Shown here: in pieces, positions 43,871 to 51,185 of the stretch | Layout: each line of letters opens with the position of its first letter | Position numbering within the stretch: the first letter of the stretch is position 1 | DNA from: an uncultured Bacteroidales bacterium | GTDB lineage: Bacteria > Bacteroidota > Bacteroidia > Bacteroidales > UBA932 | Length of the DNA stretch: 51,350 nucleotides | Direction of reading: 5' to 3' | NCBI GenBank assembly: GCA_944323775.1 | Contig: CALUTT010000035.1 | Location: 1 to 51,350, forward strand | The notes under the pieces: model-generated | The model's input: the letters and a program-made list of their open reading frames with translations, nothing else | The model's database searches: none | What the model was told of the DNA's origin: nothing | Translations under genes and position numbers: made by a program

Positions 43871-46800
43871 ATGCATTTGCTTGCCGCAGCCATACTGGCG
43901 ATTACAGCTGCCGCATACGCTTTGCCGTCCCGCGGCATGGATGACTGTCTGGCTTATTCCCGTGCCGACGGTCTGGTTTCAGACACCGTTCTTGACATCT
44001 GTGAGGACGGGGACGGAGTGCTTTGGTTCGCTACTGAGGGAGGACTGAGCCGTTTTGACGGGAGTCGTTTCCATACATATCTGTCAGGGGAAAGCGTGAC
44101 ATCATTATGCGTGGATGCTGACGGAACCATCTGGGTTGGGACAGACCACGGCCTCTATCGTATGGACAGGGAATCAGGCAGCTTCTCACTTTTCGTCATG
44201 CGCAGAGGTTCACCGGAAATCAGGGCTGTGCACAGCAGCCGGGCAGGAGAAGTATGGGCTTATACCTCCGACGGTGTTGTCTGCCGTATAACACCAGACT
44301 GCGGTGACGGGAAACAGCCGCCGGTTTCGGAGGAAGAATCACCGTATTCAGTCGGGTTCGCGGATTTCAGAGGCGCCTATTTCGAGGGCGACTACCGTTA
44401 CTTCCATATATTCGAAGATACCGGAGGTAATATATGGATAGGAGGGAGGGCCACTTCGGCAGCTGTTCTTCCGGGAGGAGATTTGTCTGCCATACGATAT
44501 CCGGTGCGCAATCCGGATATCGAGCATTTTGAAGGCTCGGCTTTCGCTTCCGATGCTTGCGGACAGGTGTATGCCACGGACGACAAGGGATATTTCTCGC
44601 TCTATGACAGCAGGTCGGGTATTTTCAGAACCGTAATGATGATACCGGTGGCTGCGGCTTGCGCTACCACGGATTCGATGGGAAGGATATGGATAGGTGG
44701 AAGGAACGGCCTCGTCAGAATCAGTGATACCGCATGCGGTTTCGAAAGAATCGGCTCCTGGAATGTCATGTGTATGTATACTGACTCGTTCGGGAATGTC
44801 TGGGCGGGTACGGGCAGGGGGCTGCTGATGTTCCCGGAACGTCATGATGCCATAGAGTCTTACTGTGACCTGAATGGCTTGAGTTCTTCATATGTCACTG
44901 CGGTCATGCAGGACAGTGACGCCTTGCTCTGGATCGGTACGCAGAAAGATGGGGTCGACACCCTGAATCTTGCCTCCGGCAAGACGGGTAATTTGAAATA
45001 TACTCTGTTGTCCGGCAGTCTGAGCCCCGGGACAGCAGCGAGAGAGGCCGGAGTGCTCGGACAATATGCCATCCACGGACTGACCCGGGACGGAGGTATC
45101 AACGAGAACAGGGTAAGTGCACTTTATCAGGACAGAGAAGGAACAGTGTACATAGGTCTGTGGTCGCACGTAGGTTTCAATACCTATGACAAGCGCAGCA
45201 GGACGTTCAAGCGTCACTGCATATGGAGTGTGCCTGCCGGTTACATTTTCCCTTTGCTGTTCGAGGGTAACCCTTTCGGCGCGAACTGGTACACGGGTTT
45301 TCTTGAGGATAGCCGGGGCAATCTGTGGTGCTCTACCTGGGAGGGCCTTGGCCTGAACCTTTTCGACAGGTCGAGCGGAGAGTTCTCAGGACGGCATTTC
45401 ATTCCGGGAGATGTACCGAGGATGCCTCGAGGGACAATATGCTCGTATGTGGAAGATGCTCAAGACGGAAGAATATATATTGCCGGAGGCAAGTGGTACG
45501 GGTACTTTGATCTTGCCGGAAGGAATTTCCACAGGTTTGCCGAATCATTCCCTGAGGATTATCCCAATGCAGGCATAATAGGAGCATATTATGCCCATAG
45601 TCCTGCCGAACTAATACCCATGCCAGTCGGTACCATCGACCTCAGAGTCCTTGACAAATATGGGGATGTCGTGGCGGTCGCTGCTGCCAATGCTCTTTTT
45701 TGTCATAATGTCGTGACTTCCGAAGTGGAGGTGCTGTTTCGTCCCGATGACTATTATATAGGATATTCCGTCGTTGGGGGATATGACGGCATCTTCGTGC
45801 GCTGGGGAGATGATGCCGTACTGTTGAGGAGGCGTGATGGCGAAGGGTTCCAGGCCGAACGCGTTTCTGCTGATGATGTCCCGGAAAAGGAAGCATGGCC
45901 GGCCAATGTGCTCGCTGCGGCCGATGGAGCTGCCGTACATGATGTCTATGATGATTGCGGGAGCATTTTTTCCGCGACCAGTGACGGTCTGTTTGAGATA
46001 GAGAACTCTTCGGGACGGATTCTGAGACATTTCAGACATGATCCGTCTGTGCGCGGTTCATTGCCGGACAATACCGTAACCTGCGTGTTCGGGATAGGAG
46101 GGGACTCCCTTTTCGTCAGCACCGGAGCGGGAGTGGCAGTGCTCCTGAAAGGCAGCGGGAGCTTTGTCAATATTTCTGAAGAGGCGCCGAACACTCTTCC
46201 CTCGCGGCTCGCTTCGTGCATAACCGAGGACTCTGGCGGCCTTCTATGGTACGGAACCACTGACAGCGGTCTGTGCTCAATAGATGTGGAAAGCGGGGAA
46301 ATCACGACTTACCGATACCACCCGTGGGAGATGGACGGGCTCCCGGACAATGATGTCAGGGACATTTTCGAGGCTTCTGACGGCTCGCTGTGGGTCGGGA
46401 CAGGAAGAGGCCTCTGCCGCCATGAGGGGGGAATGTTCGTCCGGGAACAAGCTGCGGGAGAAATTTCAGTCCGGAGAATAATCGAAGATCCGGGCGGCAG
46501 GCTCTGGGTTTCTTCTGATGACGGACTGTTTTGCCTTGACGGGCCATCAGGTTCAGTCCTTTCTTTCGGACCGGATGACGGGCTGCTGAATGATGTGTGG
46601 ACAGGAGCGGCTGCGATGCTCGACGACGGAAGGCTTGCGTTCGGGGGGCCGTCGGGACTTGACATCATTGATGCAGATGCCTTGCTTGAACATATCGAGC
46701 CGAAAATAGTGTTCAGTTTCTTCTGCCTGTCCGGAAAGACAGTGTATCACTCTGTGCCCCGCCAAATCCGGTTGAAGTATTCTGACAACAGCTTCTCCGT

Positions 46801-47866
46801 CGATTATGCGATTCCCGGACACAATCATTCGGGGAGGGCGAGCCGCTATCGCCTGCGCGGTTTCGAGAATGAGTGGAGTTATGTAGACGAGGACTGCGGG
46901 ACGGTCAGGTATACGAATCTCCCTTCCGGGAGGTATGCCCTTGAGGTGGAGACTGCTCTCGGTCCGGACAACTGGAGCGGCTCATCGCTTTTTATTGAAG
47001 TATCCCGGGCTCCGTGGCGTACATGGTGGTTCACATGCCTTGCAGTATTGATGGCCTGTGGCGCCGTATTGGCGATAATCCGTCTCCGGGAAGCTTTGCT
47101 CCGGCAGGAGAATGCCAAACTTTCAGAACTTGTCGACCGGCGTACCGAAGAGCTGAAGCTGCAGGTCGACAGCAAGAACAAGTTTTTCTCCATTGTTTCC
47201 CATGACCTGAAAAATCCATTGGGGGCGCTTTCGCTGCTTTCCGAGGAATTGAGCCGGAATTACGGGGAACTGAGTGAGCCTGAACGTATCAGGACAGTGG
47301 AACTTATCCGTGATTCCTCGAAAGGCGCTTCGAAACTTCTGGATGAAATCCTGCTTTGGGCGCTTACCCATTCAGGTGTTATGGTTCCACGTATGCGCGG
47401 ACTGGTATTGCGAGATGTTGTGGAAGCGGTCTTTTTCCTCCATGGTGCATATTCGGTGAAGCGCGGCATAACTCTGGTTAATGCGATCGACCCGGATGTC
47501 ACCGTGCTTGCTGATGCCGACATGTTGTCTGTAGTACTCAGGAACCTTGTCGGGAATGCAATAAAATATTCAAATGCCGGCGGCAGAGTTACGGTAAGTT
47601 GTGAGAGGCTTGCCGGCAAGGCGGTTGTCAGCGTCGTGGACGAGGGTGTCGGGATGACGGAAGAGCAGATGGGAAAATTGTTCCGTCTTGATTCCAAACT
47701 CTGTACTCCCGGGACGGACGGGAACAAGGGAAACGGTTTCGGCCTAGTCTGCGTGCACGAATTTCTTGAAAAGATGAATGAGAGAATCGAAGTGACAAGT
47801 TCTCCAGGTTCGGGAAGCAGGTTTTCATTCACTCTCTCCCTTGCCGGAAGAATGGACCGATCCTGA
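43871..47866 (+). CDS. Sensor histidine kinase with periplasmic propeller and Y_Y_Y domain (HTCS-like, lacking receiver and AraC parts)
   Basis: 1331 residues. Signal peptide MHLLAAAILAITAAAYA; about a dozen Reg_prop/propeller blades with W.GT..GL patterns (WFATEGGLSRFDG, WVGTDHGLYRMD, WAGTGRGLLMFP, WVGTGRGLCRHEGG); Y_Y_Y domain at about 965-1045 (YRLRGFENEWSYVDED...LPSGRYALEV); TM at about 1052-1073; coiled coil; HisKA with SIVSHDLKNPLG (His 1111); HATPase with N-box NLVGNAIKYSN (N1229), DEGVGM and GNGFGLVCVHEFLEKM. Classical Bacteroides hybrid systems continue into a receiver and AraC domain; this one stops, and a separate response regulator follows 95 nt later. The ligand is unknown; hybrid relatives sense carbohydrates. 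Confidence 0.93.
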   Translation: MHLLAAAILAITAAAYALPSRGMDDCLAYSRADGLVSDTVLDICEDGDGVLWFATEGGLSRFDGSRFHTYLSGESVTSLCVDADGTIWVGTDHGLYRMDRESGSFSLFVMRRGSPEIRAVHSSRAGEVWAYTSDGVVCRITPDCGDGKQPPVSEEESPYSVGFADFRGAYFEGDYRYFHIFEDTGGNIWIGGRATSAAVLPGGDLSAIRYPVRNPDIEHFEGSAFASDACGQVYATDDKGYFSLYDSRSGIFRTVMMIPVAAACATTDSMGRIWIGGRNGLVRISDTACGFERIGSWNVMCMYTDSFGNVWAGTGRGLLMFPERHDAIESYCDLNGLSSSYVTAVMQDSDALLWIGTQKDGVDTLNLASGKTGNLKYTLLSGSLSPGTAAREAGVLGQYAIHGLTRDGGINENRVSALYQDREGTVYIGLWSHVGFNTYDKRSRTFKRHCIWSVPAGYIFPLLFEGNPFGANWYTGFLEDSRGNLWCSTWEGLGLNLFDRSSGEFSGRHFIPGDVPRMPRGTICSYVEDAQDGRIYIAGGKWYGYFDLAGRNFHRFAESFPEDYPNAGIIGAYYAHSPAELIPMPVGTIDLRVLDKYGDVVAVAAANALFCHNVVTSEVEVLFRPDDYYIGYSVVGGYDGIFVRWGDDAVLLRRRDGEGFQAERVSADDVPEKEAWPANVLAAADGAAVHDVYDDCGSIFSATSDGLFEIENSSGRILRHFRHDPSVRGSLPDNTVTCVFGIGGDSLFVSTGAGVAVLLKGSGSFVNISEEAPNTLPSRLASCITEDSGGLLWYGTTDSGLCSIDVESGEITTYRYHPWEMDGLPDNDVRDIFEASDGSLWVGTGRGLCRHEGGMFVREQAAGEISVRRIIEDPGGRLWVSSDDGLFCLDGPSGSVLSFGPDDGLLNDVWTGAAAMLDDGRLAFGGPSGLDIIDADALLEHIEPKIVFSFFCLSGKTVYHSVPRQIRLKYSDNSFSVDYAIPGHNHSGRASRYRLRGFENEWSYVDEDCGTVRYTNLPSGRYALEVETALGPDNWSGSSLFIEVSRAPWRTWWFTCLAVLMACGAVLAIIRLREALLRQENAKLSELVDRRTEELKLQVDSKNKFFSIVSHDLKNPLGALSLLSEELSRNYGELSEPERIRTVELIRDSSKGASKLLDEILLWALTHSGVMVPRMRGLVLRDVVEAVFFLHGAYSVKRGITLVNAIDPDVTVLADADMLSVVLRNLVGNAIKYSNAGGRVTVSCERLAGKAVVSVVDEGVGMTEEQMGKLFRLDSKLCTPGTDGNKGNGFGLVCVHEFLEKMNERIEVTSSPGSGSRFSFTLSLAGRMDRS

Positions 47867-47868
47867 AC

Positions 47869-47939
47869 TGTGGTGAAATTCACTGACAATGTTTTCCTGA
47901 ATTATAGTGCAGATGTGACGGAATGATAGTCTAACTTTG
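47869..47939 (+). promoter_or_regulatory. Promoter and upstream element of the response regulator gene (copy 1 of a shared 71-nt motif)
   Basis: The -7 box TAACTTTG (47932-47939) has no TTTG 19-21 nt upstream. Upstream are TGTGGTGAAATTCACTGACA (47869-47888), which contains the dyad GTGAA-A-TTCAC, and TTCCTGAAT (47894-47902). The same elements at the same distances occur at 48681-48751. The lack of a -33 box suggests that an activator is needed. Confidence 0.65.
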
Positions 47940-47961
47940 CGCACAATACAAAAACCGAGCG

Positions 47962-48642
47962 ATGAAAGGAGAAATATCGACAAGCCAGGATGCTTCAGTA
48001 CATATTCTCATAGCAGACGATTCCGAGATATTCAGGGCCGGTATCAAGGCTATTCTTGGGTCGGAGAGGTCGGTTTGCGTCGATTCGGAAGCGGCATCCT
48101 GCAACCAGATCAGGGAGATACTCGAGGATGGCCGTGTGCCTGATGTGATTCTGCTCGACATTTCCATGGATAAGGAGGATGACGGGCTTGAGATGCTGTC
48201 GTGGCTGAACGGGAATTATCCTGGAATCAAGATTGTCATCTTGTCGCACTATAAGGAACTGAGATTCATAGTTGAGGCTGTAAGAAAAGGGGCCAGGGCC
48301 TACCTGGCAAAGGATACGTCTCCTTCTGAGCTCATCGGGGCGCTGACGGCGGTCCGCCAGGGGAACGGTGTGTATTTCGGCGAGAGTATACCTTCCGAGC
48401 TCCTGGCAAGGAGCTTCGGCAGCGATGACAATATGCACAAGGGACGTCCGTACAGACTCAGTGACAGGGAGATGGAGATACTCAAGATGCTCTCCAGGGG
48501 CCATTCGGTGAAGGAGATATCCAATGTGCTTGCCATCAACGTGTCCACTGTGGAGTCCTACAAGGAACGCATTAAGAACAAACTGGGTGCAGATACGACG
48601 ATGGAGGCAGTGGTATTCGCCGTTAAGCAAGGCTTGTTCTGA
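47962..48642 (+). CDS. NarL/LuxR-type response regulator
   Basis: 226 residues. Receiver domain at about 13-130: acidic pair in ILIADDSEIFRAG (D19-D20), phospho-acceptor D66 in DVILLDISM, and Lys 117 in AYLAKDTSPSE. C-terminal LuxR HTH at about 160-222: LSDREMEILKMLSRGHSVKEISNVLAINVSTVESYKERIKNKLGA. It is the likely partner of the kinase just upstream. NarL-type regulators more often pair with HisKA_3 kinases, so the combination with a HisKA kinase of HTCS type is unusual. It probably controls its own promoter and that of the secreted pair downstream. Confidence 0.94.
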   Translation: MKGEISTSQDASVHILIADDSEIFRAGIKAILGSERSVCVDSEAASCNQIREILEDGRVPDVILLDISMDKEDDGLEMLSWLNGNYPGIKIVILSHYKELRFIVEAVRKGARAYLAKDTSPSELIGALTAVRQGNGVYFGESIPSELLARSFGSDDNMHKGRPYRLSDREMEILKMLSRGHSVKEISNVLAINVSTVESYKERIKNKLGADTTMEAVVFAVKQGLF

Positions 48643-48680
48643 CTTTGACTATTATGGAAAACACGTATATATCTCTGATT

Positions 48681-48751
48681 TGTGGTGGAATATCCTGACA
48701 CGGAATTCCTGAATCTCATTACATGCGTGTCGGGAGGTCGGGCTAAATTTG
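48681..48751 (+). promoter_or_regulatory. Promoter and upstream element of the secreted gene pair (copy 2 of the shared 71-nt motif)
   Basis: TGTGGTGGAATATCCTGACA (48681-48700), TTCCTGAAT (48706-48714), and -7 box TAAATTTG (48744-48751). It aligns with 47869-47939 over 71 nt without gaps, with 47 identities by my count, clustered in three blocks. No -33 box. It predicts a leader of about 20 nt to ATG 48776. Confidence 0.65.
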
Positions 48752-48775: not shown

Positions 48776-50035
48776 ATGAAACTACGAATCATGGCTCTCG
48801 CATCGAGCCTTCTGTGTGCGGCTGTCTGTCTGTCCGCCCAGGATGATCCTTCAGGAACCGTCATCCTCAAACTCTCCAACCGCTATGCCGGTGAAAACTC
48901 CTTCATCCCTGCCGACTTTACCGACGAGGCCATAGTCATGACCAGGGAGAACAACCTCAGTTCGGAGAACGGCGGCTGGGAGTTTGCGCTCTTCGGCCCG
49001 GTGAACGGGCTGTCATACATCCAGCGGATACCTGAAAATGGCTGGACGTCCATGATAGCCCTGAAGCCGGAGACCGGCTATGTCGCCAGAATCCAGAAAG
49101 GCTTTACCAATTGGGACAATATGGTTGAGCCAAACTATGTGTATGTGGGCATATACTGCGTCGGTTGGAGAACGGCGGCTGGCGATGACGGAGGAATAAT
49201 CGGCGCCAACCTGAAATATGTCTGCCCGTTCAGGCCGGAGGTGGCTCCCGTCAGCGACAGAATTTTCAGCAACGGGTCCGTGTCGCACTCCGGGCTGGCA
49301 CTCTGGTATATCGAAGAGGCGGATGCCGACCGCAACGGCGTGATCGAGAACTCTGAAATGCAGGAGGTGAAGACACTCGGGCGCAACTTTCCCGGAAGGG
49401 TCGATCTTCCGGATTATCTCGAGGGACTGTGGAGGTTCGAGAACCTTGAGGAACTGTATATATCTGACGGGAATTTTACCCTTGGGAAAGAACTCCGTGT
49501 CACGCACGACAAGCTGAAGAAGATCACGCTTGACTACCATGGGGATCTTGAATACATAGACCTCAGCGGCTGTCCCAATCTTGAGACAGTCTATGTCATG
49601 CACTGTGCCCTGAAAAGCGTGGAACTGCCCTCTTCTGTGGTCGACCTCGACCTTGCAGGCAACAATATCGTGAGACTGGACCTTTGCGGCCTTCCTCATT
49701 TGAAAAGGCTGGTCATCCGGGATAATGAACTTGAAACCCTGGATGTAGGCTGCCTGCCTGAACTTGAAATACTCGCCTGTCAGAACAACAGGCTTCAGAC
49801 TCTTGACCTGAGTGCGAATCCAGGATTGACGCAACTGTATTGTGAGAATAATCTGATTGAGGAGCTTGACATCTCGGGCAATGCGTCGATAGTGGTCCTT
49901 TCCGTGGCGAGAAACGGCCAGCAGAATAGCCTGCACCGTCTGTATATCCCGCCCGGGAAGACAAAGCGGGAGTACAGGAGCTCTGAATCCGGACCGCTGT
50001 CGTGGTTCTCGGGAGTGGAAGTCATAAATAAATGA
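48776..50035 (+). CDS. Secreted protein with an EF-hand loop and leucine-rich repeats
   Basis: 419 residues. Signal peptide at about 1-19 (MKLRIMALASSLLCAAVCLSAQ). An unrecognised N-terminal domain of about 160 residues is rich in aromatic residues (GGWEFALFGPVNGLSYIQRIPENGWTSM). Residues 183-194, DADRNGVIENSE, form a textbook EF-hand/dockerin-type calcium loop (D1, D3, N5, G6, I8, E12). About 250-395 is a run of ~21-residue LRRs of the type LEILACQNNRLQTLDLSANPGL. No C-terminal type IX sorting signal seen. The start is ATG 48776, not 48749, because the signal peptide begins there and 48749 lies in the -7 box. The stop overlaps the next start (ATGA). Confidence 0.85.
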   Translation: MKLRIMALASSLLCAAVCLSAQDDPSGTVILKLSNRYAGENSFIPADFTDEAIVMTRENNLSSENGGWEFALFGPVNGLSYIQRIPENGWTSMIALKPETGYVARIQKGFTNWDNMVEPNYVYVGIYCVGWRTAAGDDGGIIGANLKYVCPFRPEVAPVSDRIFSNGSVSHSGLALWYIEEADADRNGVIENSEMQEVKTLGRNFPGRVDLPDYLEGLWRFENLEELYISDGNFTLGKELRVTHDKLKKITLDYHGDLEYIDLSGCPNLETVYVMHCALKSVELPSSVVDLDLAGNNIVRLDLCGLPHLKRLVIRDNELETLDVGCLPELEILACQNNRLQTLDLSANPGLTQLYCENNLIEELDISGNASIVVLSVARNGQQNSLHRLYIPPGKTKREYRSSESGPLSWFSGVEVINK

Positions 50036-50838
50036 AACGTAATATGAGGAAGATCGTTTTTGCGCTTTGCGCCATGGCCATGTTCTGGCCTGTAGCAGTC
50101 TGCCAGGAAAAAACCTACAAGGTAGGGGATGTTTTCTACGAAGAAGGAAAGGCCGTCGGGGTAGTGTTCGCCGTCGAGGATGGCGGAAGACACGGGAAGG
50201 TTGTCAGGCTGTGGGACTTTACTTCTGTCGGTCGTTGCTGGGGCGATTCCTGGGGAACCGGTGATGTGGGGTACGGCCGGGAATTCTACAGGCTTTACCG
50301 TTCCCAGGACAATAAATTGCTTCACGCAACCGTTACCGAAGATGCGGTACATAATGCCAACTCCGGAGCTACGGACATGAACGACGGGGCTCTCAACAGC
50401 AGGCGTATTGTCTGGAACTGGTATTATAAGCGTTCTGGTGACGGTTCTCTGTCCACGGAACTCTACTGTCCTCTGCTGCGCAGCATTATGGGAATTTGCA
50501 ATCCTGAGCTTTTCGATTCTGTTACTTCCCGGGATGAATCCGATGCATTTAACTATTACGATCCGGTACGTGAAGGTCATTGGTATCTCCCGGCAGTGGG
50601 CGAGCTCGAGGAACTGTACGGCCTCTGTGCCCAGGAAGGTCTGAACGAAGCCATAGTGGCTGCCGGAGGAAAGGCTTTGTACGGGTTCTACTGGTCCTCT
50701 ACCGAACTCGAGTGGGATGACGGTGATGTCACTGATGCCTACACCTATAATATCATCGGAGGCTACTCCCATTATATGCGAAAGTGTGACGGGATCAGCG
50801 ATCCTCCTGTTTATGTGAGGGCAGTCCGACGTTTCTGA
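50032..50838 (+). CDS. Secreted DUF1566/Lcl C-terminal-like protein
   Basis: 268 residues. Signal peptide MRKIVFALCAMAMFWPVAVC (signal peptidase I or II uncertain). The mature part starts with EKTYKVGDVFYEEGKAVGVVF and ends with the pattern GHWYLPAVGELEELY ... FYWSSTELEWDD ... YNIIGGYSHYMRKCD ... VYVRAVRRF, which follows the DUF1566/FGE-sulfatase-like layout (W.LP...EL, WSST, VRAVR). Function unknown; such domains are common on Bacteroidetes surface proteins. ATG 50032 overlaps the LRR gene stop, so the two products are probably made in fixed ratio. Confidence 0.82.
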   Translation: MKRNMRKIVFALCAMAMFWPVAVCQEKTYKVGDVFYEEGKAVGVVFAVEDGGRHGKVVRLWDFTSVGRCWGDSWGTGDVGYGREFYRLYRSQDNKLLHATVTEDAVHNANSGATDMNDGALNSRRIVWNWYYKRSGDGSLSTELYCPLLRSIMGICNPELFDSVTSRDESDAFNYYDPVREGHWYLPAVGELEELYGLCAQEGLNEAIVAAGGKALYGFYWSSTELEWDDGDVTDAYTYNIIGGYSHYMRKCDGISDPPVYVRAVRRF

Positions 50839-50895
50839 CGTAAGTCACGATATGGATGGGCCGGAACAAGTTTTCCAAAATTTTTGCAAGAATAA

Positions 50896-50926
50896 TTTGG
50901 AAGTTCAGGAAAAGTTACTACCTTTG
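50896..50926 (+). promoter_or_regulatory. rRNA promoter P1
   Basis: TTTG (50896-50899), 19 nt, TACCTTTG (50919-50926), a perfect match, with A/T-rich sequence upstream. Its transcript reads through P2 and P3 before 16S. Confidence 0.88.
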
Positions 50927-51113
50927 CTGCCCCTTTCGGAAACGAGGGGACACAAAAAGTTCTTTTAAAAAAATCTTTCAAATTTTTTAAATAAAAATTT
51001 GCAGATTCGAGAAAAGTTACTACCTTTGCTGCCCCTTTCGGAAACGAGGGGACACAAAAAAAGTTCTTTCAAAAAATCTTTCAAATTTTTTAAATAAAAA
51101 TTTGCAGATTCAA
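50909..51113 (+). repeat. Tandem ~102-bp duplication carrying rRNA promoter elements
   Basis: Copy 1 at 50909-51010 and copy 2 at 51011-51113 are nearly identical, each running from GAAAAGTTACTACCTTTGC through CCCCTTTCGG..CGAGGGG and an A/T-rich tract to TTTGCAGATTC. Differences are a few bases and one base of length. Each junction places a -33 box 19 nt from the next -7 box, so duplication of the unit creates a further promoter. The second copy ends by providing the -33 of P3. Confidence 0.9.
50998..51028 (+). promoter_or_regulatory. rRNA promoter P2
   Basis: TTTG (50998-51001), 19 nt, TACCTTTG (51021-51028). Upstream is an A/T-rich tract that could act as an UP element. Confidence 0.88.
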
Positions 51114-51131
51114 AAAAAGCAACTACCTTTG
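51101..51131 (+). promoter_or_regulatory. rRNA promoter P3
   Basis: TTTG (51101-51104), 19 nt, TACCTTTG (51124-51131). The downstream sequence (GTAGTCCCAATC) differs from that after P1 and P2, so its initially transcribed region is different. Confidence 0.88.
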
Positions 51132-51159
51132 TAGTCCCAATCAAAACGAGGGAATGGCC

Positions 51160-51185
51160 ATCAGCCGACAGCGGCTGGTTTTTTT
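51160..51185 (+). terminator. Terminator-like hairpin in the rRNA leader
   Basis: CAGCCG-ACAG-CGGCTG (51162-51177), extended by a U-G and an A-U pair, followed directly by seven Ts (51179-51185). It has the form of an intrinsic terminator but lies between the promoters and 16S, so it must be overridden or act as an attenuator. The remaining leader to 51317 has a TTTCTTTGAA boxA-like stretch (51267-51276) and a GTAC/GTAC mini-hairpin; nothing else recognised. Confidence 0.7.

Follow-up and report, generated by a model that had tools for sequence, protein, structure and literature searches.

Candidate operators of a LuxR-type response regulator at two similar promoter regions in an uncultured Bacteroidales bacterium, and a related palindrome with fixed promoter spacing in homologous loci

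Class II activation is exemplified by LuxR, which acts at a lux box overlapping the −35 element of its target promoter. The locus analyzed here resembles this system in that a palindrome of ~20 bp, with a probable center near −41/−42, would replace the upstream core element; it differs in having a Bacteroidota promoter of the TAnnTTTG type and a regulator that bears a receiver domain, whereas LuxR itself is ligand-binding. A second point of comparison is the NarL/FixJ (LuxR-type) class of response regulators. The regulator of this locus is like them in combining a receiver with a GerE helix-turn-helix (HTH), in adjoining a kinase gene, and in the inverted-repeat site found in its relatives, and unlike them in the Tyr of the recognition-helix stretch T[VI]xxYKERIK, which is His in four distant homologues, and in its putative operator, TGTGGYGRAWTYCRCCACA. 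In the HTCS of Bacteroides, the kinase, the receiver, and an AraC-type HTH lie in one protein and direct-repeat motifs have been predicted, according to the accessible part of PMC3878776. The present locus shares with HTCS a large periplasmic sensor joined to a histidine kinase and its occurrence in Bacteroidota, but here a separate ORF encodes a LuxR-type regulator with GerE, and the candidate site is a palindrome. FimS/FimR of Porphyromonas gingivalis is likewise a two-component system controlling surface proteins in a Bacteroidales species (PMC1974823, as far as accessible); in the main text of that paper, as far as available, there is no mention of a binding site, an inverted repeat, a palindrome, a footprint, or LuxR. 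A search of the open-access literature, with subscription journals mostly outside its range, returned no description of the operator TGTGGYGRAWTYCRCCACA or its regulon.

The window, i.e., the whole stretch of 51,350 nucleotides that was analyzed, belongs to a genome of 1,707,637 bases (~1.7 Mb; hereafter G000). The genes and candidate promoter elements of the locus are as follows (consensus counts refer to the 19-bp palindrome described below).

43871..47866, + strand: sensor histidine kinase, 1331 aa (Pfam: Reg_prop propeller repeats, Y_Y_Y, HisKA, HATPase_c)
47869..47887 (dyad to 47888), + strand: candidate distal operator O2 of the regulator promoter, TGTGGTGAAATTCACTGAC, 15/19 consensus
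47893..47911, + strand: candidate proximal operator O1 of the regulator promoter, TTTCCTGAATTATAGTGCA, degenerate, at the 28-nt register, 11/19 consensus
47932..47939, + strand: −7 box of the regulator promoter, TAACTTTG, no −33 TTTG
47962..48642, + strand: response regulator of the LuxR/NarL type, 226 aa (Pfam Response_reg and GerE; homologue alignment and tree)
48681..48699 (dyad to 48700), + strand: candidate distal operator O2 of the secreted-pair promoter, TGTGGTGGAATATCCTGAC, 12/19 consensus
48705..48723, + strand: candidate proximal operator O1 of the secreted-pair promoter, ATTCCTGAATCTCATTACA, at the 28-nt register, 12/19 consensus
48744..48751, + strand: −7 box of the secreted-pair promoter, TAAATTTG, no −33 TTTG
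48776..50035, + strand: predicted secreted leucine-rich-repeat (LRR) protein, 419 aa from ATG (Pfam LRR_4; signal-peptide-like N-terminus by a heuristic)
50032..50838, + strand: second predicted secreted protein, 268 aa (similarity to Lcl_C under the curated Pfam cut-off; N-terminus by the same kind of heuristic)

The Pfam matches of the kinase include no receiver and no DNA-binding domain, the last match being HATPase_c at residues 1215–1324 of 1331; the single-protein combination of kinase, receiver, and AraC-type HTH is absent, and we therefore rejected the classification of this kinase as an HTCS. The regulator is a NarL/FixJ response regulator by domain content, with a receiver domain and a GerE HTH (1.6e-20 and 1.3e-14, respectively). 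Its VILLDIS and YLAKD stretches align with those of the homologues and presumably hold the phosphoacceptor Asp and the conserved Lys of the receiver, the phosphorylation itself being predicted; its recognition-helix stretch is STVESYKERIKNKLG. The first promoter copy begins 2 nt from the kinase stop codon. A mechanically generated ORF list placed the start of the first secreted gene at a TTG inside the −7 box, but the ATG at 48776 is the likelier start, so that the distance from the −7 box to the likely start codon is 22 nt for the regulator gene and 24 nt for the LRR gene. The start of the second secreted gene overlaps the stop codon of the LRR gene, which makes it likely that the two belong to the same operon.

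The initial annotation drew attention to the two 71-nt regions 47869–47939 and 48681–48751. They align without a gap and with 47 identities, in agreement with the first count by eye, and their similarity drops at either end beyond the 71 nt. When either 71-mer was compared across the window, the background identity was 17.5–17.8 (SD 3.7–3.8); the next-best forward match had 34 identities for the regulator copy (a) and 37 for the secreted-pair copy (b), and the best reverse-strand matches also had 34 and 37. Among 1,386 71-mers sampled from the window, 11 had a match with at least 47 identities, six of them from tandem repeats at 50.9–51.1 kb and five from paralogous coding stretches at 3.2–5.3 kb. 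Such ungapped, end-to-end similarity would also result from a recent promoter duplication, in which case the common blocks would be leftovers of descent rather than binding sites. We consider this explanation very improbable, because the identities are distributed as the annotation had described, i.e., they are dense in O2 (16/20), O1 (13/19), and the −7 box (7/8), and sparse between O2 and O1 (1/4) and in the linker to the −7 box (10/20). Furthermore, the half-site recurs at essentially the same distance in an orthologous locus whose regulator is 60% identical, and the palindrome is found in distant homologues. The copies may have arisen by duplication, with the sites then maintained by selection, which would be compatible with control by the regulator.

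Within G000, the spaced motif TGTGGTG-N7-CTGACA-N5-TTCCTGAAT occurs, at ≤ 3 mismatches, only in the two window copies, and a reversed control of this three-block motif gave no match in the 1,707,637 bases. The shorter pattern TGTGGTG-N53..58-TAnnTTTG was also found in G000 at the same two places alone, with one additional match in another genome, G240 (contig C5). The imperfect dyad symmetry claimed for the upstream block is present in both copies (TGTGGTGAAATTCACTGACA and TGTGGTGGAATATCCTGACA). Additionally, both copies lack a TTTG 19–20 nt before the −7 box, as had been stated; the accompanying statement that most other promoters in the window have one does not hold for −7 matches taken together, since 8 of the 21 TAnnTTTG sequences in the window have such a TTTG. 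The three-block spacing as a conserved unit was discarded: the window copies are its only two occurrences in G000, and blocks 2 and 3 are missing from the orthologous locus (L030).

The element that appears to be conserved is a palindrome, rather than the three-block spacing. In homologous kinase/regulator loci, the 19-bp palindrome TGTGGYGRAWTYCRCCACA stands ahead of the kinase gene, and a secreted or outer-membrane-type protein is often encoded divergently on its other side. Homologues at 34–40% identity mostly have the regulator gene directly against the kinase gene or overlapping it, and an overlap is present in all 18 loci of L046–L063. Of the 16 loci of L046–L063 that could be examined, 15 have an operator with ≤ 3 mismatches to TGTGGTGNNNNNCACCACA ahead of the kinase gene (L050 and L062 are cut; L055 is the examinable locus with no site before its kinase gene), as do 9/9 of L031–L039, of which L031–L037 are closely related to one another (L040 is cut). 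A scan of 101 genomes for TGTGGTGNNNNNCACCACA with 1 mismatch matched 44 genomes, and its reversed control matched 6; with the sharper TGTGGYGRAWTYCRCCACA, also at 1 mismatch, 70 of 400 genomes matched, with one genome (G057) among the control matches listed. The combination of operator and −7 box gave no match in 198 genomes of the order, a set with three entries from the window's family that serves mainly as a specificity control. In other genera, a locus fetched afterwards for its regulator (L171) carries a perfect palindrome, and its −7 boxes lie at offsets of 28 and 45. L168, likewise from another genus and with the next-best regulator score (44% identity), has no site recognizable by script or eye; L170, from another genus, has neither a match to the window's kinase nor a site, and L169, also from another genus, is cut inside the kinase gene. 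The loci read cover 20 of the 22 regulator matches outside G000, of 65 positive genomes, and because the sampled genomes are related, these counts are not of independent events.

We then considered the position of the palindrome relative to the promoter. For 168 arms of 84 distinct sites, we recorded the distance from the palindrome to the end of a TAnnTTTG −7 box: it is exactly 28 nt in 67 arms and 44–47 nt in 39. No arm has a box at 27 or 29 nt, and seven further offsets have one or two boxes each, whereas the box density of the window would predict 0.034 per offset. Seven of the 84 sites lack a −7 box at both spacings. The 39 arms at 44–47 nt are followed by a kinase-like ORF in 35 cases, by another ORF in three, and by none in one. 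An ORF follows all 67 arms at 28 nt, and the single kinase ORF among these, in L038, has another −7 box at 68. Clustering of 65 targets on 28-nt arms gave 14 sequence groups, with a signal-like N-terminus in every one of the 65; the same crude hydrophobicity rule called 11 of 32 window genes, two of the 32 being the proposed targets themselves. The target in L154, automatically labeled kinase-like, resembles a recurrent type of target with the sequence RGRVGAGYL and was left out of the 65. In these 67 of 168 arms of the relatives, a putative activator site covers the position of the upstream core element at an exact distance; the window has only degenerate candidate sites at this register.

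The targets are diverse. Pfam searches of ten of them gave no family for five; others had WG repeats, an outer-membrane beta-barrel, or NlpC/P60 with SH3 (on a 44-nt arm), and two had matches below the curated cut-off, to a DnaJ-type zinc domain and to DUF4136. The commonest group (20 of 65) is lipoprotein-like, often with the sequence VTFRKANI.GA.MLALAQG (L060:7469–9001, L038:651–2168, and 18 more), and its member in L060 had no Pfam match. The recurrent type RGRVGAGY[LM].GGTTR, of ~210 aa, follows 28-nt arms in L134, L110, L138, L153, L154, and L157, and the member in L134 also had no Pfam match. At L153:2555–2573, an operator with 28-nt −7 boxes on both sides lies between divergent genes with signal-like starts. 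At L073:501 and L158:2478, the operator lies between an NlpC/P60-SH3 gene on the 44-nt arm and a DUF4136-like gene on the 28-nt arm, which indicates that the long spacing is not limited to kinase genes.

In the sample of 400 genomes, the operator was detected in 54 of 65 regulator-positive genomes (E ≤ 1e-30) vs. 16 of 335 regulator-negative genomes (Fisher 4e-41), an association that is partly circular, as loci of this kind supplied the operator pattern; the later addition from another genus, L171, is free of this bias. The 11 regulator-positive genomes with no operator, of which five were read, include G000, G240, and G014 (contig cut), as well as G045 and G092, whose sites have more mismatches. 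The 16 operator-only genomes could indicate that another regulator or an ECF sigma factor reads the palindrome and that its gene merely travels with the kinase/regulator pair, binding by the regulator itself being predicted. However, ten of the 16 were read (all except G126, G148, G197, G210, G370, and G372), and in five the context points to assembly gaps, because the kinase gene itself follows the site (G121, G180, G271, and G383) or a 28-nt promoter is present (G040). The other five (G056, G069, G106, G123, and G320) lack a −7 box at both spacings and resemble chance matches. Moreover, the palindrome adjoins the operon of the regulator and tracks the Tyr/His state of its recognition helix: Tyr in T[VI]xxYKERIK is present in 32 of 36 aligned regulators, including those of the window and L030, and the available sequence around the four His-bearing regulators (L064, L065, L168, and L170) contains no operator. 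The tree of these 36 sequences was built without L026, L028, L041, and L042, and several of its placements depend on long branches and call for caution. An ECF factor in particular is difficult to reconcile with the TAnnTTTG −7 box, which is the consensus of the primary sigma factor and not of ECF factors, according to the accessible part of PMC7366714. We therefore give another reader of the palindrome very little credence and take the response regulator as its probable ligand.

The window itself has no canonical operator: the 19-bp palindrome is absent from it at ≤ 3 mismatches, hence also from the region before the kinase gene, and the best match is O2 of the regulator promoter (15/19). The full pattern of operator, N20, and TAnnTTTG at ≤ 3 mismatches was found in neither G000 nor G240. 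The window operators are weak variants of the palindrome, not canonical cases, and for this reason the case for the window rests on the half-site, the register, and the orthologue. A matrix derived from the 67 arms in other genomes was applied at the 28-nt register upstream of the 21 TAnnTTTG sequences of the window. The secreted-pair promoter ranked first and the regulator promoter second, two ranks that are not independent given the possible shared ancestry of the promoters. The scores of these O1 sequences are reached by 0.7% (secreted pair) and 1.3% (regulator) of window 19-mers. The O2 copies, both of which end 52 nt before the end of the −7 box, score −2.1 in the regulator promoter and −19.4 in the secreted-pair promoter, values reached by 8e-5 (0.008%) and 0.14% of window 19-mers, respectively. 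The blocks of the initial annotation can accordingly be redrawn, with TGTGGTGRAAT and CTGAC forming the putative O2, TTCCTGAAT and the next bases the putative O1, followed by the −7 box, and each window promoter seems to hold two degenerate candidate operators 24 bp apart.

The nearest orthologue has a similar layout. Among the 400 genomes of the genus, regulator matches at 1e-48 or better were limited to the window's own genome and G240, whose regulator is 60% identical to that of the window; the relevant stretch of G240 falls inside L030 (record CAMCIE010000001.1). Between the kinase and regulator genes, L030 has TGTGGTGGATTTT...AAAATTCACCACA, followed by 28 nt to the end of TATATTTG. The expected conservation of the blocks held in part: the half-site TGTGGTGGATTTT lies 70 nt from the end of the −7 box (71 in the window), whereas CTGACA and TTCCTGAAT are absent. 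The combination of the half-site TGTGGTGRA with an operator-like match at the 28-nt register is therefore common to both window promoters and L030, where the best operator scores are at offsets 28 and 51, each with 13/19 consensus, strong outer arms, and weak inner arms. As in the window, this two-operator layout stands ahead of the regulator gene. A gene for a BspA-type LRR protein begins 12 nt past the regulator in L030, so that an LRR protein is again encoded downstream, here with no second promoter of this kind.

Based on these comparisons, we consider it quite probable that both 71-nt regions are promoters under the response regulator encoded between them, which would activate its own gene and the secreted pair. 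This had been proposed in the initial annotation, and it gains good in silico support from the conserved operator and the same half-site in homologous loci, and is favored by the co-occurrence of operator and regulator and by the fixed 28-nt distance. The sensor kinase would phosphorylate the regulator, dimers of which may bind O1 and O2. The 28-nt rule puts the last bases of the operator over the position of the −33 TTTG, 19–20 nt upstream of the −7 box. If the last G of the −7 box sits near −4, a position that we assume, the center of O1 would be near −41. TAnnTTTG at −7 and TTTG near −33 form the consensus of the primary sigma factor, and a −33 motif went undetected in Flavobacterium johnsoniae, both as given in the accessible part of PMC7366714. 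Because the operator covers the −33 position and the −33 TTTG is missing, the regulator may supply the upstream contact: bound at O1, it would replace this element and recruit RNA polymerase with the primary sigma factor in a class II-like manner. In this way, the regulator would positively control its own gene and, together with it, the genes of the LRR protein and its partner.

We favor activation over repression on the basis of operator position. The same position over the −33 region would also suit a repressor that blocks polymerase, with negative autoregulation and repression of the secreted genes, and 27 of the 84 operators serve two divergent promoters at both spacings, which could be read in the same way. 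We regard repression as unlikely, although less so than the two alternatives discussed above, because neither window promoter has a −33 TTTG, so that both look weak unaided, and because spacing that is exact to the base fits contact with polymerase better than blocking.

Beyond activation at the two window promoters, we lean, with somewhat less assurance, towards a broader reading, in which the homologous loci represent an undescribed two-component regulon of a large group of Bacteroidales and the window shows an operator in the course of being rewired. Through one palindrome, a kinase with a propeller sensor and its LuxR-type partner would switch on a varied set of secreted, lipoprotein-like, and outer-membrane-type proteins. 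The palindrome would stand in for the −33 element of promoters read by the primary sigma factor, with base-exact spacing, and its other face would serve the kinase gene at the second spacing. In the window lineage, the single palindrome would have been split into a degenerate pair 23–24 bp apart with strong outer arms, most clearly in L030, and such pairs would have been placed at the regulator and target promoters. Already under the narrower reading, the control point in this lineage would have moved from the kinase promoter, as in the relatives, to the regulator promoter. The tandem form could plausibly serve to let two dimers, spaced 24 bp apart, bind cooperatively. The operator family provides a testable positional rule for activation in Bacteroidota, with the operator ending 28 nt before the end of TAnnTTTG and over −33; it points to secreted and surface genes as targets, and it allows the canonical single palindrome to be compared with a split tandem form in one lineage. 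Our impression is that activator sites are seldom positioned with this precision in the phylum.

Two other features of the window were recorded. A cluster of four tRNA genes lies on the minus strand at 773–1118. At 50876–51160, three tandem promoter-like modules (TTTG, 19 nt, TAnnTTTG), ~102 nt apart, run toward the end of the window, where, as judged by eye, a 16S rRNA gene seems to begin.
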